Shown here piece by piece: positions 610 through 22,121 of a DNA stretch of 49,994 nucleotides. Source of the stretch: Candidatus Nanoarchaeia archaeon (GTDB lineage Archaea > Nanoarchaeota > Nanoarchaeia > SCGC-AAA011-G17 > JAFCDX01); contig JAQUND010000010.1 in the NCBI GenBank assembly GCA_028717785.1, forward strand, positions 1 through 49,994, written 5' to 3'. A program made the position numbers and the translations under genes. Every line of letters starts with the position of its first letter. Position 1 is the first letter of the stretch. The notes beneath the pieces are model-generated. The model did no database searches, was not told the origin of the DNA, and saw only the letters and a list, made by a program, of their open reading frames with translations.

Positions 610-819
610 ATGCATAAAACAAATGCTCGGATGGATTGGACTGTTTTAGATGTTTTAGTATATAGACCTTTTGAATGTCCGAGAAATCTAGATCTTTGTA
701 TTTCTTTTCATAAAGGGACATTGCCTGATACAACTTATGGACAAGAAAAAGAGCGATGTCCATTCTTTATAAGTGAAGAAGAAAGTTTTGAGCATATTGA
801 TATTGAATGTCAAGATTAA
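610..819 (+). CDS. hypothetical protein
   Basis: A 69-residue protein starting at ATG 610, with GGAG at 592-595 as a distant possible binding site. It contains three Cys, a run of acidic residues (ISEEESFEHIDIECQD) at the C-terminus and no recognised domain. The stop abuts the tRNA-Leu gene that starts at 821. Function unknown. Confidence 0.5.
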   Translation: MHKTNARMDWTVLDVLVYRPFECPRNLDLCISFHKGTLPDTTYGQEKERCPFFISEEESFEHIDIECQD

Positions 820-820
820 T

Positions 821-905
821 GCCCGGGTGGCGGAATCGCTAGACGCACCAGGCTTAGGACCTGGCGCCGAAAGGCGTGGGAGTTGAAGTCTCCCCCTGGG
901 CACCA
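821..905 (+). tRNA. tRNA-Leu(TAG), CCA encoded, swapped 19-56 pair
   Basis: The acceptor GCCCGGG pairs with CCTGGGC and ACCA follows (902-905). The anticodon arm CCAGG-CTTAGGA-CCTGG gives TAG, and a type II variable arm is present. The D-loop reads TCGCTAG where TTGGTAG is usual, and the T-loop reads TTGAAGT instead of TTCAAGT. The normal G19-C56 tertiary pair therefore appears changed to C19-G56, which looks compensatory. Confidence 0.93.
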
Positions 906-1048
906 TATAAATTGCTAATTCAGTTTTTAAGAGACAATGTTTGGTTTTTATGTTCCAATTGTCATTCTTTTGTAATAAAAAGATTAGGTCTGATTCATGA
1001 AATTGCTAATTCAATATTTAAAAGTCGCTGTTTTGGCCAGGAGATAAA
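906..1048 (+). other. 143-base spacer without a convincing gene
   Basis: An open frame runs from the tRNA through this stretch but has no start or binding site of its own. A 14-base direct repeat (AAATTGCTAATTCA, near 909 and 999) and a weak hairpin (GACAAT/ATTGTC with TGG/CCA inside, about 931-963) are visible. It may be a decayed gene; nothing firmer can be said. Confidence 0.3.
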
Positions 1049-1429
1049 ATGGCTGAAGTTGAAGATTTAGAAGCAATTTTCAGGTTACGAAAACATGAAC
1101 CTACACAGGTAGAACTTAAAGAGTTAGAAGAAATCAAGAAAAAAACTACTAAAAATAAATTTGCTTTTTTGCGAGATGGTAAAGTTAATTTAACGGAAAA
1201 TGAAATCGAAAAAATAAATCAAGTTAATTCTAAACTTGAACCTATAATTCCTAGAAATTGGCGACAGGATTATAAAAAATTTAAAGATAAAAAGACAGGT
1301 AATGAAAGATATGTCGAAATGAAATCACCACCTTTGCTTAGAAGAGTTGGTGAACATACAGATATAGGCCAGATGCTGGAATCGGGAGACAACTCGGACT
1401 CAAAATCCGAGGGACCGCAAGGTCCGTAA
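1049..1429 (+). CDS. hypothetical basic protein whose C-terminus is read from a tRNA gene
   Basis: Starts at ATG 1049 after CCAGGAGATAAA, a strong binding site. The 126-residue product is charged and helical (ELKELEEIKKKTTKNK; IPRNWRQDYKKFKDKKTG) with no recognised domain. The last 21 codons lie within the tRNA-Leu(CAA) gene at 1367-1452, so the stop at 1427-1429 falls in tRNA sequence. Either the two overlap genuinely or an older protein end was replaced when the tRNA moved in. Confidence 0.6.
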   Translation: MAEVEDLEAIFRLRKHEPTQVELKELEEIKKKTTKNKFAFLRDGKVNLTENEIEKINQVNSKLEPIIPRNWRQDYKKFKDKKTGNERYVEMKSPPLLRRVGEHTDIGQMLESGDNSDSKSEGPQGP

Positions 1430-1452
1430 GGGTTCAAGTCCCTTTCTGGCCA
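1367..1452 (+). tRNA. tRNA-Leu(CAA)
   Basis: The acceptor GGCCAGA pairs with TCTGGCC. The anticodon arm TCGGA-CTCAAAA-TCCGA gives CAA. The variable arm is GGACC-GCAA-GGTCC and the T-loop TTCAAGT is canonical. The discriminator is A, as expected for Leu; CCA is not encoded. The upstream protein-coding frame overlaps its first 63 bases. Confidence 0.95.
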
Positions 1453-1471
1453 AATTTGATCTTTGAAATTA

Positions 1472-1656
1472 ATTGGTTGTATCTTTTAACGATTAGTGCT
1501 TACATTTTTATCTTGGTTCAAATCCAAGACCCGGCACTCAGTTGATTGTGGCTGAGCTTATGTCAATTGGGTGCCGGGTTAGCCGAACTGGTTCAGGCAA
1601 CAGTCTCAAGAACTGTCAAAAAGAAAAACAGCATTGATAACTCAGATGCAACCAGT
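1472..1656 (+). tRNA. candidate circularly permuted tRNA-Leu(CAA)
   Basis: The 3' half comes first: T-arm CTTGG-TTCAAAT-CCAAG (1512-1528), acceptor strand ACCCGGC (1529-1535), discriminator A. The 5' half follows: acceptor GCCGGGT (1573-1579), TA, D-arm GCC-GAACTGGTTCA-GGC, and anticodon arm ACAGT-CTCAAGA-ACTGT (1600-1616), anticodon CAA. The two acceptor strands pair perfectly, and the spacer extends the helix by eight pairs (TCAGTTGA with TCAATTGG, counting G-U). The flanks also pair: 1492-1500 with 1630-1638 (9 pairs) and 1472-1484 with 1644-1656 (13 pairs). The break lies in the long variable arm of a type II tRNA. Structure seen directly; function inferred. Confidence 0.75.
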
Positions 1657-1669
1657 TTTTAAATTTTAG

Positions 1670-1890
1670 GCCCTTGTAGCATAAACTGGACAGTGCACTC
1701 GGAAAAACGGACCGGGACTCTTAACGGAGGGCATTGACCGATCGTAGGCGAGTTCCATGGTTGCGGCAGAACTGATACGCTGCCAAAGATCTGGCGACAG
1801 CTTTGGAGGGTTTGTAAACAGCGGCAGGAATCGCGTTTCCTAAGAGGAGCTCTAATCAATGTTATGTGGGTTCAAGTCCCACCAAGGGCA
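1670..1890 (+). tRNA. tRNA-like gene interrupted by a structured GC-rich insert
   Basis: The ends form a canonical tRNA body: acceptor GCCCTTG/CAAGGGC, D-arm GCAT-AAACTGGACA-GTGC, T-arm GTGGG-TTCAAGT-CCCAC, discriminator A at 1890. About 165 bases lie between the D-arm and T-arm. They are GC-richer than the surroundings and highly foldable: 1748-1756 pairs with 1827-1834 (one bulged G), CTCTTA 1718-1723 with TAAGAG 1841-1846, and CCAAAG/CTTTGG (1783-1806) encloses a stem capped by a GCGA tetraloop. Near the D-arm, CTCGG can pair with CCGGG around a nine-base loop lacking U33. The anticodon cannot be assigned. Group I core motifs (AGACTA/TAGTC type) are not visible. Confidence 0.65.
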
Positions 1891-1897
1891 AAATTAT

Positions 1898-1970
1898 GTT
1901 AGCGTAGCTCAATTGGTAGAGCACCAGGCTCATATCCTGAAGGTTGATGGTTCAAGTCCATTCGCTAACA
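1898..1970 (+). tRNA. tRNA with CAT anticodon (elongator Met or Ile2)
   Basis: The acceptor GTTAGCG pairs fully with CGCTAAC, so it is not initiator-like. The D-arm is GCTCAATTGGTAGAGC and the T-loop is TTCAAGT. Anticodon loop CTCATAT gives CAT; the closing 27-43 pair is a C/A mismatch. Whether it is Met or lysidine-modified Ile2 cannot be told from sequence alone. Confidence 0.93.
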
Positions 1971-2018
1971 AATTTTCTAAAAAGTATATAAGAATCTACT
2001 GGTAAACGGGAGATTCTT

Positions 2019-2931: not shown

Positions 2932-3777
2932 ATGGCAATAAAAATTTTTTTAGATTCAAATATTTATCTTAGATTTTACGATAAAAAATCGAGTGAATAT
3001 TTTGTTTTGTTACGTAATTTGCCTTTATTAAAAGATAAGTTGTTTGTAACGCAACAAATTTTTAACGAAGTGAAAAGAAACAGTTTGAATGTTGCTTTGA
3101 GTTCTTTAGAATTGCAAATTCCAACAAAATTTTGTTCTTCAGATCCTTTAGTCAGTCGATACAATGAATATATTGATTTTTTACAGAACTATAAAACAAA
3201 TATTTTAGAATGTTTAATTAATGAAGTCGAAAACGGAACAGATGACGTGAGCAGGACATTACAAGAAACTTTTATAAACGTTCAAACGCCAACAGAATTG
3301 CAAATTTCAAAAGCAAGAGAACGTAAAGAGTTAGGTAATCCTCCTGGAAAACCTAACGATCCATTAGGTGATCAAATTTCTTGGGAACAATTATTGTCGA
3401 GTTTACAAACTAATGATGAACTTATTTTAGTAACAAACGATAACGATTTTGTTGTAAAAGGATTTAAAAAAGTTTTTTTAAATCCTTTTTTAAAAAAAGA
3501 GCTTGAGAGCAAAAAAATTTATAAGATAGTATGTTTTAATACGTTTAGTGAAGCTTTGAAAGAGATCAAAAAAACAGCTCATGAACTTTTTATTCCTGAG
3601 AATATTAAGTCGATTGCTCAAGAAGAAACTAGAGGTGTTACAGGTATTTCTAGTTTTGTCAATATAGAGATGGGGGTAACTGGTATGCAATTCGGAACAC
3701 CAGAAACATGGTATCCTCCTCAAAGAAATTCTGCTGTAGCAGCATTGACAGGAATTGGGAAAGGTATGATTGGATAA
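2932..3777 (+). CDS. PIN-domain-like nuclease
   Basis: Starts at ATG 2932 after AGAAGGTG. The N-terminal FLDSNIYLRFY carries the first PIN acidic residue; GDQISWEQLL (about residue 146) and LVTNDNDF (about 168) supply the later acidic cluster, as in PIN-like endoribonucleases of the DUF4935/PIN_8 type. The last 60 residues are a Gly/Thr-rich tail of unknown role. PIN proteins of the VapC class often cut tRNA or rRNA. Its position inside a tRNA array and near a permuted tRNA makes an RNA-processing role attractive, but this is inference. No antitoxin partner is seen. Confidence 0.75.
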   Translation: MAIKIFLDSNIYLRFYDKKSSEYFVLLRNLPLLKDKLFVTQQIFNEVKRNSLNVALSSLELQIPTKFCSSDPLVSRYNEYIDFLQNYKTNILECLINEVENGTDDVSRTLQETFINVQTPTELQISKARERKELGNPPGKPNDPLGDQISWEQLLSSLQTNDELILVTNDNDFVVKGFKKVFLNPFLKKELESKKIYKIVCFNTFSEALKEIKKTAHELFIPENIKSIAQEETRGVTGISSFVNIEMGVTGMQFGTPETWYPPQRNSAVAALTGIGKGMIG

Positions 3778-11252: not shown

Positions 11253-12014
11253 ATGGCGCTTTCAAATTGGGATTGTTTAGCATTCAATTCAGAAGCTAAA
11301 GCTTCTATTGGTACATTTAAACATTTCAAGTTAAAGTCTTCTATTACTATTTACAAAAACTGGGCTTATGTCTCAAGCGAGGAAATGTGGTGTGAAGGTG
11401 GTGATTTCACAAAACCTACAATTGCAGCAATAAACTCTGGTGATATACAATTAGCAGGTTTTGATATTGTATCAATCAGGGGCCCTCAGAATGGCATTTT
11501 TATTTATGCAAGTTGTACTGACTATAAACAAGAACCTGAAAAAACTGTGTATCACAGATTTGCTGGTATTGGTTGTGCTGGCTATAAAGATACAGTAAGT
11601 GAAGTTTTAAAAACGCTTGGACGTGAGCCAAAGGATGATGAGAATTGGTATTCTGGTTCTAATCATCTTGGTGAACATTTTATCGGATGTCATGAAACAA
11701 ATGAAGAGATTGTCTATTGGGACGAAAGAACACAAGGTTCTTATGATTACAGTTCTGATTGGGTGGGCGTTCTTCCCTCGACACTCGAAGAATTTTTTAA
11801 ATGGCTTTCAAGTTTAGCTGATGATTATGTTGTTGATTTTAAAGAATGGGTAGAAAATTGCAAAAAGTCTGGTGCTTTACGTTTTAATCAGGGGGATTTA
11901 TTCTTTGCTGAAAATGCAGGTGTTGAATTGCCTGCAACTAAACCGGGTGAGAGCGAAGCACCAGTATTAAATGAAATAATTAAAGCTATGGCTGGAGATA
12001 ATGCTAATGAGTGA
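11253..12014 (+). CDS. hypothetical protein
   Basis: 253 residues from ATG 11253, two bases after the previous stop, with GAGGAG upstream. Many aromatic and acidic residues; LPSTLEEFFKWL and a mixed alpha/beta pattern recall SUKH/SMI1-like proteins, but the match is too weak to call. It contains a run of short beta strands with Trp. It overlaps the RNA ligase gene by a few bases. Confidence 0.6.
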   Translation: MALSNWDCLAFNSEAKASIGTFKHFKLKSSITIYKNWAYVSSEEMWCEGGDFTKPTIAAINSGDIQLAGFDIVSIRGPQNGIFIYASCTDYKQEPEKTVYHRFAGIGCAGYKDTVSEVLKTLGREPKDDENWYSGSNHLGEHFIGCHETNEEIVYWDERTQGSYDYSSDWVGVLPSTLEEFFKWLSSLADDYVVDFKEWVENCKKSGALRFNQGDLFFAENAGVELPATKPGESEAPVLNEIIKAMAGDNANE

Positions 12015-13026
12015 AGCTAAACATTGTATTTTTTGCGGCATGAAACATGAGGGTAAGATTTGTCCACCAGAAGCATTTGTTGTAATGACTTGTACTAATT
12101 GCGATAATGAAGTTGTTATGCCATGTGATGCAGCTGCTATGAGCATGAGTGTAGCTTGTGGCAATTGCGATAATGTGGGTTGGAAAGTAAAACCTGCAAC
12201 ACATGATATTATGAAAAAACATAATCCTGATTATGATAAATTTTGCGTAAATATGCGAGCTTTTGATTTGAAAAAAATCAATTCAGCTACAAAATATCCA
12301 AGTATTCTTACATATCATGCGTTGGGTGATAAAGGATGTCTAAAAGAAGAAGTTCTTGTTTCTTTTTCGACAGATGATGAAGTTTTTCTTTCAGAGAAAA
12401 TTGATGGTACAAATGCTCGTATTATTTTGTTTCCAAAAGGAGCATATCTTATCGGTTCTCGAGAAGAGCTTCTTTATGGTTTCGGAGACTGGATACATAA
12501 TACTACATTAGATATTGTAGACACGATTCGAACTGTGGCTGACAATGCAAGAAGAATTTATTGGGATCAACTCGAACAAGCTGTTTTTGTGTTATTCGGA
12601 GAAGTTTATGGAGGAAAAGCAGGTACAGCAAAGAATTATACAAAAACAGGAAAGCTTGGTTTCAGGTTATTTGATGTCATGATGATGACAGCAAAAGAGT
12701 TTGAAGATTTACTTGATTTGCCAGTAGAAAAAATAGCTGCTTGGAGAGATAATGGTGGACAAATTTTTGCAGGTGTAAGAACAATTGCAAGTGTTGCATC
12801 AGACATAGGATGCTCAACTGTTCCTTCTATTGCTGGAACATTACCGCCTCAAAGTATACAGGACACTTATGATTGGTTAAAAAAAAATCTCCCTGGTACA
12901 ACACATGCATTGCTTGAGAATGATGCTTTGGGAAAACCTGAGGGTGTCGTGATACGTACAGAACGACGTTCAAAAATTGCAAAGATTCGTTTTGAAGATT
13001 ATGAACGGACCCTTAAAAAAAGATAA
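12007..13026 (+). CDS. RNA ligase (Rnl2-like) with N-terminal zinc ribbons
   Basis: ATG 12007 is spaced nine bases from GGAG; ATG 12001 is an alternative. Residues 7-54 hold CIFC, CTNC and CGNC zinc-ribbon pairs. The nucleotidyltransferase core follows: EKIDGTNARI with Lys131 as AMP-accepting residue, FGEVYGG, and EGVVIRTE near the C-terminus. The family seals nicked RNA, for example tRNAs cut by host anticodon nucleases. The zinc ribbons are an unusual addition that could bind RNA. In a genome with a permuted tRNA gene and a PIN nuclease, tRNA joining is a testable role. Confidence 0.88.
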   Translation: MSEAKHCIFCGMKHEGKICPPEAFVVMTCTNCDNEVVMPCDAAAMSMSVACGNCDNVGWKVKPATHDIMKKHNPDYDKFCVNMRAFDLKKINSATKYPSILTYHALGDKGCLKEEVLVSFSTDDEVFLSEKIDGTNARIILFPKGAYLIGSREELLYGFGDWIHNTTLDIVDTIRTVADNARRIYWDQLEQAVFVLFGEVYGGKAGTAKNYTKTGKLGFRLFDVMMMTAKEFEDLLDLPVEKIAAWRDNGGQIFAGVRTIASVASDIGCSTVPSIAGTLPPQSIQDTYDWLKKNLPGTTHALLENDALGKPEGVVIRTERRSKIAKIRFEDYERTLKKR

Positions 13027-21605: not shown

Positions 21606-21683
21606 CGGGATGTAGCTCAGTCTGGTTAGAGCACTGCGCCTGGGACGCAGGTGTCGGAGGTTCAAATCCTCTCATCCCGACCA
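21606..21683 (+). tRNA. tRNA-Pro(TGG), CCA encoded
   Basis: The acceptor CGGGATG pairs with CATCCCG and ACCA follows. Anticodon arm CTGCG-CCTGGGA-CGCAG gives TGG. D-arm and T-arm are canonical. Confidence 0.96.
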
Positions 21684-21768: not shown

Positions 21769-21843
21769 CGGAGTGTAGTTCAGCCTGGTTAGAACGTGTG
21801 ATCCGGGATCACAAGGCCGGTGGTTCAAATCCACTCACTCCGA
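21769..21843 (+). tRNA. tRNA-Pro(CGG)
   Basis: The acceptor CGGAGTG pairs with CACTCCG. Anticodon arm TGTGA-TCCGGGA-TCACA gives CGG. T-arm GGTGG-TTCAAAT-CCACT. CCA not encoded. Confidence 0.95.
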
Positions 21844-22017: not shown

Positions 22018-22030
22018 GTTTGAAATTTAT

Positions 22031-22102
22031 TGGGGTATAGTTCAGTAGAAGAACGCTGGCCCTTGGAGCCGGGTGTCGGAGGTGCAAATCCTTCTACCCC
22101 AG
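22031..22102 (+). tRNA. tRNA-Gln(TTG) with altered D-loop/T-loop contact
   Basis: The acceptor TGGGGTA pairs with TACCCCA. Anticodon arm CTGGC-CCTTGGA-GCCGG gives TTG. The T-loop is TGCAAAT, so position 55 is G rather than the near-universal T, and the D-loop AGTAGAA has AG where GG is usual. Both partners of the 18-55 contact are changed. It otherwise looks intact. Confidence 0.88.
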
Positions 22103-22121
22103 TTTTTTAACGAGTAAAAAT

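Follow-up and report, generated by a model that had tools for sequence, protein, structure and literature searches.

Can a tRNA gene whose 3' half precedes its 5' half, and whose acceptor strands are joined by a hairpin, give rise to a working tRNA, or does it serve another purpose? This question is raised by positions 1472-1656 of the 49,994-nucleotide stretch of DNA which we analyzed as a whole (hereafter, the window). A sequence-only reading had proposed that a permuted tRNA gene lies there in a phage-like genome, and its sequence, fold and relatives confirm this. Judged from the sequence, the element codes for an RNA that resembles tRNA-Leu(CAA) and is circularly permuted, and the element lies in what is likely phage DNA. 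The feature is real and conserved and, as far as the open-licence literature shows, it has not been described before (among the papers listed by searches of that literature, none reported phage permuted tRNAs in its title or start of abstract).

The permuted element and its surroundings

Along the forward (+) strand, the element consists of a clamp arm, the T-arm with the 3' acceptor strand, a spacer folding into a hairpin, the 5' acceptor strand, the D-arm, the anticodon arm and a second clamp arm. The outer clamp, P1, is formed by 1472-1484 and 1644-1656 (13 bp), and the inner clamp, P2, by 1492-1500 and 1630-1638 (9 bp), both with G-U pairs. The same pairing of the flanks had been noted from the letters, and in the MFE fold the two helices are separated by a 7-by-5 internal loop. 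The tRNA 3' half starts with the T-arm (1512-1528, CTTGG-TTCAAAT-CCAAG) and continues into the 3' strand of the acceptor stem (1529-1535), which pairs at 7/7 positions with the 5' strand (1573-1579), the start of the tRNA 5' half; the full complementarity claimed for these strands thus stands. A73 comes next, at 1536, where the spacer (1536-1572) begins. Its length of about 37 bases had been estimated correctly (37 nt), but it adds 11 pairs to the stem (1536-1546 with 1562-1572, around a terminal segment of 15 nt) and not the eight counted before. The D-arm (1582-1598, GCC...GGC with GG in the loop) and the anticodon arm (1600-1616, loop CTCAAGA, anticodon CAA at 1607-1609) are canonical, as is the T-arm, and here we agree with the earlier description, except that the MFE structure draws a D-stem longer than GCC/GGC. 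The junction between the halves lies in the variable region, as had been proposed, but it is not specific to the long variable arm of a type II tRNA-Leu, as Cys- and Lys-like copies share it.

The MFE of the element is -73.3 kcal/mol, compared to -43.2 +/- 4.1 kcal/mol for shuffled sequences (z = -7.3), and none of 200 dinucleotide shuffles folded as low. In place, the element was neither called by ARAGORN nor matched by Rfam at gathering score, and counts of phage tRNA genes may thus miss genes of this kind. Within 1440-1900, no Rfam family, RF04321 and RF00023 included, covered it at E values up to 10. When the two halves were re-ordered, ARAGORN in its standard mode called tRNA-Leu(caa) in one of three joins, the clamp-trimmed one only, and with introns allowed one of the remaining joins was called as Leu(caa) interrupted by a 21-nt intron and the other, wrongly, as Thr(tgt). 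An ordinary phage tRNA would be a cloverleaf read from 5' to 3' with a free acceptor end, and the window element is not of this form, its acceptor being closed.

The stretch 1367-1452, shortly before the element, is an ordinary tRNA-Leu(caa) gene. Among 20 window ORFs scanned against PHROGs, there were matches to a helicase, an RNA ligase, an NAD synthetase and ParB-like proteins, among others, and none to a structural protein; the label 'phage' is based on these matches and on the relatives described below. No relatives were confirmed for a PIN-domain neighbour in the window. At 1670-1890, beside the permuted gene, a tRNA-Gly(tcc) containing a 134-nt insert is called by ARAGORN when introns are allowed, and the stretch 1656-1900, which folds at -71.6 kcal/mol, is missing at the same place in the syntenic viral record G037. 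Further along the window, ordinary tRNA-Pro and tRNA-Gln genes (21606-21683, 21769-21843 and 22030-22103) have C33 instead of U33.

Relatives in viral records and the flanking frame

Searching viral contigs for a pattern of T-arm, acceptor and 5' half, which the window itself fits, gave only two stretches and led to locus L002 of a 469,617-bp contig (G001) that holds three tandem permuted copies: a Cys-like one (GCA, U73), a Lys-like one (UUU, loop CGTTTAA) and a UGA copy. Another locus from this search, L001, was rejected as not being a clean permuted tRNA; at its positions 12102-12331, the two halves of another tRNA apparently enclose a T-arm with an acceptor strand and, after these, the matching 5' half. 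The window copy and the three G001 copies were aligned by sequence only (alignment A1, with the structure taken from the window), and the model R1 made from A1, run over 39 viral records, gave full-length matches in further ones. The 11 sequences gathered with R1 formed alignment A4 and, from it, model R2. Over 50 viral records, with at most 64 first-look candidates scored per record, R2 gave 17 matches of at least 60 bits in 12 records. With the window included, the family comprises at least 18 different elements from 15 records. G024 and G038 carry two elements each, identical in sequence, which are counted once as elements and twice as records; taking G024 and G038 as one leaves 14 records. 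The virus loci had been fetched by T-arm and CTTACA patterns, so these totals are lower bounds and no measure of prevalence. In the bacterial control, which consisted of the genomes of 30 out of 119 bacterial loci with up to 101 first-look candidates scored per genome, the best R2 score was 48 bits, and the 60-bit threshold was set after this maximum had been seen. One of the carriers is public, namely LR756511.1, an 'uncultured phage' of 595,163 bp. Kept out of the 18 were L403 (54.8 bits) and L394 (50.7 bits), as well as a second-frame group (L006, L024/L353 and L190/L348), L018, L356 and lower-scoring rows, and L398 and L442.

Record G037 (194,595 bp) was reached via a window protein, the NAD synthetase (64% identity), and not via an RNA pattern. 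R2 scored its two elements, neither of which had been used in training, at 130 and 127 bits, and both are located between tRNA-Leu(caa) and tRNA-Met(cat), the same place as that of the window copy. An ordinary tRNA without the outer stems at this place in homologous phages would have refuted the permuted reading; the syntenic G037 instead has two permuted copies. Other non-training elements above 60 bits were found in G026 (82), G046 (69) and G029 (60), and a later R2 scan of 72 loci added L219 (86 bits) and L433 (73 bits), also outside the training set. When window positions 1400-2000 were compared by blastn with phages (132 records), the 40 matches listed all started at query base 465 or later, beginning at the ordinary tRNA-Met, and none lay on the permuted element. 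The G001 array, L325 and L346 gave nothing against phages, nor did the G001 array against plasmids, and L006 gave one phage match, of 38% coverage, on a tRNA-Arg. Among the matches listed in bacterial genome contigs, no fetched locus gave a strict match free of ordinary tRNAs.

In A1, 148 of 161 cells (91.9%) are paired and 22 of 41 pairs are changed on both sides, compared to a mean of 12.9 in shuffles, none of which (0/500) reached this number; with the partners slid, 7 or fewer pairs are doubly changed. The D-arm is misaligned in A1 for copies C1 and C2 (helix 4: 58% paired). In A4, which was fitted to R1 and whose pair counts lean towards the structure, 33 of 41 pairs are doubly changed and 97.3% of 369 cells are paired, with at most 13 such pairs in the slid controls, and in all 11 sequences every cell of the anticodon stem (100%) is paired. 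Judging by these alignments, each of the five stem groups shows compensatory changes: the acceptor, T, D (weaker) and anticodon stems and the clamp. For the outer stems a search for such changes had been proposed, and 10/10 aligned P1 pairs are doubly changed in A4. A filter for sealed and framed elements gave 14 matches in 256 virus loci, all of them tabulated members, versus none in reversed sequences and none in three block-shuffles; it does have false positives, since the bacterial locus L138 passed it.

These results bear on the explanation that the elements are degenerate tRNA relics, recombination debris or an assembly rearrangement. A deletion between neighbouring tRNAs could, presumably, join a T-arm to a 5' half, and a single copy of the family could be dead. 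Nevertheless, viral records that were assembled separately, among them G037 at the syntenic position, show the same order, and this also speaks against the local assembly rearrangement that the sequence-only reading had raised. As a general explanation, relics are countered by the compensatory changes in all stem groups and by the filter results, and we regard this explanation as hardly credible.

The window copy and the three G001 copies share a frame with constant spacing, [P1]-YUYYUAAY-N5-RNGC-KUACA before the tRNA-like body and GC-N6-RACUY-[P1'] after it. In the window, this corresponds to TAAC-N5-GTGCTTACA at 1487-1504 (with CTTACA at 1499-1504) and to GC-N6-AACTC at 1631-1643, and the spacing of the latter is identical in six frame elements of the window and G001. 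A frame search of 2.65 Mb (overlapping loci included) found these six elements only, and, because the consensus had been derived from them, the search is informative through its lack of further matches. Beside the four permuted copies, they include an ordinary-order tRNA with an encoded ACCA (G001 241919-242063; L002 about 2940-3090) and a non-tRNA RNA of three hairpins, without a T-arm, in a P1/UAAU/GUACA frame (G001 about 242080-242200; L002 about 3098-3215). Another framed ordinary-order tRNA with an encoded ACCA is present in W01 (290971-291105; L321 1776-1910, minus strand). Within L002 2900-4000, only the ordinary-order tRNA passes the Rfam gathering score; that the frame is a known ribozyme found no Rfam support, and this idea was dropped. 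In all tabulated members except G029, which has CATACA, the T-arm is preceded by CTTACA (15/16), but this conservation is biased, as many members were found through CTTACA patterns. RACUY follows the anticodon arm at the expected place in 11 of the 16; an automatic search counted 13, two of them beyond P1.

Sealed permuted elements in a second frame were noticed at L006 2867-2936 (+), L353 39-109 (+, from L024) and L348 1521-1590 (-). This frame has CAGCAA, AGGATAC/GTATCCT in two of the three, and a separate hairpin before the T-arm. Ordinary-order tRNA bodies in frame-like flanks occur at L324 1258-1323 (-) and L326 1804-1865 (+), where the Rfam tRNA model matches at positions 5-66 only, with no acceptor match. 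Such partial matches fit the idea that an acceptor is not needed, and not permutation as such.

Just upstream of the window element, TTTGATCTTTGAAAT (1455-1469, +) is promoter-like and might act as a promoter; it is the sole perfect match to TTTGATCTTTGAAAW in the window. One perfect and one 2-mismatch match to TTTGATCTTTGAAAW closely precede two of the three copies in G001, and the similar TTCTTTGAAAATA precedes both G037 copies; with up to 3 mismatches allowed, TTTGATCTTTGAAAW counts are at chance level. The promoter scan gave no sigma-70-like promoter. A T-run directly after P1 (1656-1660, +) may be a terminator tail, and runs of at least four T follow P1 in 5/6 of the window, G001 and G037 copies (the window group) and are absent from other members. 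The terminator scan found none; its 8-nt loop limit excludes a structure of this kind. Since the TCTTTGAAA element precedes 5/6 copies of the window group and the T-run follows as many, the primary transcript could, if these signals are read correctly, be the final RNA.

Acceptor ends and ring closure

The acceptor stem has 7/7 pairs in 15 of 16 tabulated members and 6/7 in one, and in 16 of 18 elements it is continued into extra pairs or closed by a tiny loop. In the window group, the joining segment measures 25-37 nt, with 2-11 more pairs that continue the acceptor stem without a break, and position 73 is paired with position -1 in 6/6 copies. The other sealed members have closures of 2-6 nt, including GNRA and UNCG loops, the classic very stable RNA tetraloops, which close 5 of the 18 elements. 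The closures are GCAA in W01, GAAA in G026, UUCG in G029, CCCC-UUCG-GGGG with a shortened stem in G027, C-GUCC-G in G012, G-GUUA-C in G046, ACATC in G024b, GCTTC in G050, GUC-UCCG-GAC in L219 and ACA in L433, while G045 and G024a have 10-12 nt starting with ACCA, that is, A73-CCA encoded after the acceptor strand. Pairing of the leader with 3' RCCA reduces cleavage by bacterial RNase P (PMC9433436). Given this effect and the tetraloop or extended-pair closures, most members look, from their sequences, as if they were built to stay closed. With acceptor ends modelled as closed hairpins, the elements would likely be unable to carry amino acids.

The sequence-only reading had supposed a tRNA that awaits ring closure or works with a nick. 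We found no support for it, as the acceptor is kept closed across the family, EndA is absent from the carriers searched and ligases are inconsistent. The search for these enzymes covered 11 of 14 carrier records (G046, L219 and L433 were left out). The EndA-type endonuclease PF01974 was found in 0/11, some of which may be fragments, and was present in four archaeal controls. The RNA ligase gene of the window (12001-13026) belongs to PF09414 and PHROG 548. PF09414 exceeded the cut-off in 5/11 carriers versus 8/11 other viral records, RtcB (PF01139) was found in 4/11 carriers and the T4 Rnl1-type ligase (PF09511) in 1/11, and G001, with three permuted copies, has none of the three. Dependence on an RNA ligase was rejected, as the presence of PF09414 does not track the permuted genes.

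Could the element nevertheless mature into a working tRNA? In that case the acceptor hairpin would be opened by the RNase P and 3' enzymes of the host, possibly once RNase III has cut the long stem, and the tRNA would function in two pieces held by the clamp or be ligated at the variable region, the latter resembling permuted tmRNA or the algal permuted tRNAs. The window copy, with its canonical Leu-type arms, U33 and A73, agrees with such a fate, as do the RNA ligase gene in the window, the encoded A73-CCA and short spacer of G045 and G024a and the U73 of the Cys-like G001 copy, U73 being usual for tRNA-Cys. On the other hand, tetraloop-sealed members leave no space for leader, trailer and CCA, and the pairing of 73/-1 and further bases throughout the window group disfavours RNase P. 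The patchy ligases and the lack of PF01974 in these possibly fragmentary records do not help either, and neither do the two copies with G33 or the fact that all six anticodons checked duplicate those of ordinary tRNAs (see below). Taken together, we find a tRNA precursor rather unlikely.

Anticodon loops, possible roles and known systems

Among the 16 tabulated members, position 33 is U in 11, G in two, C in two and of uncertain register in one. Ordinary tRNA calls in the carrier records (256, drawn from overlapping loci with duplicates included) have U33 in 249 cases, C33 in seven and G33 in none. The G33 loop, CGUUUAA with the Lys-type UUU anticodon, occurs in two phages, G001 and G037, whose bodies are 0.70 alike. 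In the tRNA regions of three records, the anticodon of each permuted copy checked (6/6) is duplicated by an ordinary tRNA of the same record: Leu(caa) in the window, Lys(ttt), Cys(gca) and Ser(tga) in G001, and Leu(tag) and Lys(ttt) in G037. Both the anticodon arm and the signature of the elbow, with GG in the D-loop and TTCRANY in the T-loop, are retained. The two G037 copies (UAG and UUU) are 0.85 alike, and each is 0.81 alike to the window copy (CAA); among ordinary tRNAs, the closest to the window copy is a Cys at 0.74. Among the G001 copies, similarity is 0.62-0.69 and does not exceed that of each copy to its closest ordinary tRNA (0.67-0.72), and the argument from a shared body therefore fails in G001. 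This phage also has a CTA-anticodon tRNA (149116-149189; Pyl according to ARAGORN), a possible amber suppressor.

As the elbow and anticodon arm are intact, the acceptor is closed, the loops are varied and the working tRNAs are duplicated, bait for tRNA-acting proteins seems to be the best explanation. Bacterial immune nucleases that cut anticodons would be the obvious targets. We tentatively propose, at somewhat short of an even chance, that the window element remains uncharged and serves as a decoy for those proteins of the host by which tRNAs are recognised or cut at their elbow and anticodon arm. In this scenario, the RNA would be transcribed and stay closed, escaping RNase P and tRNase Z cutting and receiving no CCA, and the frame would protect or present it. 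Anticodon nucleases of the PrrC, VapC, PARIS or retron type, or similar tRNA-directed factors, would then bind the mimic, and the functional tRNAs of the phage would be spared. A broader proposal, possible but doubtful on sequence evidence, is that the family is a new RNA class of sealed permuted tRNA bodies in a CUUACA frame, serving as swappable anticodon decoys that would soak up anticodon nucleases while ordinary tRNAs keep translating.

Counting for decoys are the seal, the covariation, the independent G037 copies, the anticodon redundancy of the six copies checked, the body shared by G037 and the window with different loops, and G33, as well as the published effects of leader pairing on RNase P and of phage tRNAs on tRNA-cutting defences. 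Against them count the A73-CCA encoded in G045 and G024a, as for a tRNA meant for charging, and the unshared bodies in G001. The framed ordinary-order tRNAs and the framed non-tRNA RNA also count against them, since the frame is thereby not decoy-specific. Moreover, U33 is kept in most loops (11/16), C33 (2/16) occurs in ordinary calls as well (7/256), and, in the window copy, the Leu loop with its U33 is plausible and A73 is present. The sources on phage tRNAs, in which none is shown as a decoy (see below), count on the same side.

A stable structural or regulatory RNA, whose tRNA fold would recruit a modification enzyme, EF-Tu, a synthetase or the ribosome rather than divert a nuclease, is another explanation, which we judge somewhat unlikely. 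It would suit the kept elbow, the three-hairpin RNA without a T-arm held by the same frame, and the resemblance of window-group copies to separate transcription units. However, the anticodon stem, fully paired in A4 while the loops vary, would not be needed for a pure elbow or structural role.

If the elements are decoys, phages would produce RNA bait against tRNA-cutting immunity, and the anticodon loop would reveal what is targeted. Why large phages bear so many tRNA-like genes could then be tested gene by gene. If the elements mature instead, bacteria would possess a so far unknown way to join swapped halves into tRNAs.

In bacteria, a permuted RNA is already known in the two-piece tmRNA (RF04321), whose tRNA-like acceptor is formed from two segments. 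Its acceptor loop gets removed, whereas here the acceptor loop is conserved as a seal. Neither RF04321 nor RF00023 matched the element in the window or in the loci of six relatives; locus L325 matches both elsewhere, where viral record G012 has a tmRNA gene (713-1112, minus strand; RF00023, 101 bits) near its permuted element. Artificial circularly permuted tRNAs were reportedly used as RNase P probes by Nolan et al. in 1993. They are said to combine a tRNA fold with moved termini, as is the case here, but they were laboratory-made, with no frame and no natural family.

Closest in gene order are the permuted tRNA genes of algae and archaea, of which a review, in its available text, counts 34 and names six unicellular algal species (PMC3978253). 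As in the window, their 3' half comes first, the termini lie inside the tRNA body and the flanks pair. Unlike the window fold, they have at the termini a bulge-helix-bulge (3-nt bulges around a 4-bp helix) or a relaxed form of it, in some cases without the central helix (PMC3978253); this motif is absent from the termini of the window fold, the only one judged. Their RNAs are closed into circles, a step probably performed by the enzymes of tRNA splicing, and give ordinary tRNAs (PMC3978253), whereas here the acceptor is sealed. Of the known features of permuted tRNA genes, the gene order is thus present, while the splice motif is missing from the window fold and the acceptor end looks sealed. 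A conserved, sealed viral family with no visible splicing-type pathway differs from these genes.

Phage tRNAs are also known to counter tRNA-cutting defences and to bear anticodon-loop changes; in the available text of the sources, they are shown as resistant replacements and none as decoys (PMC10264068, PMC11555353, PMC12409363). Phage tRNA arrays and altered anticodon loops are shared with our elements, but those tRNAs have the ordinary order and replace cleaved ones, whereas the elements described here are permuted and predicted to be unchargeable.
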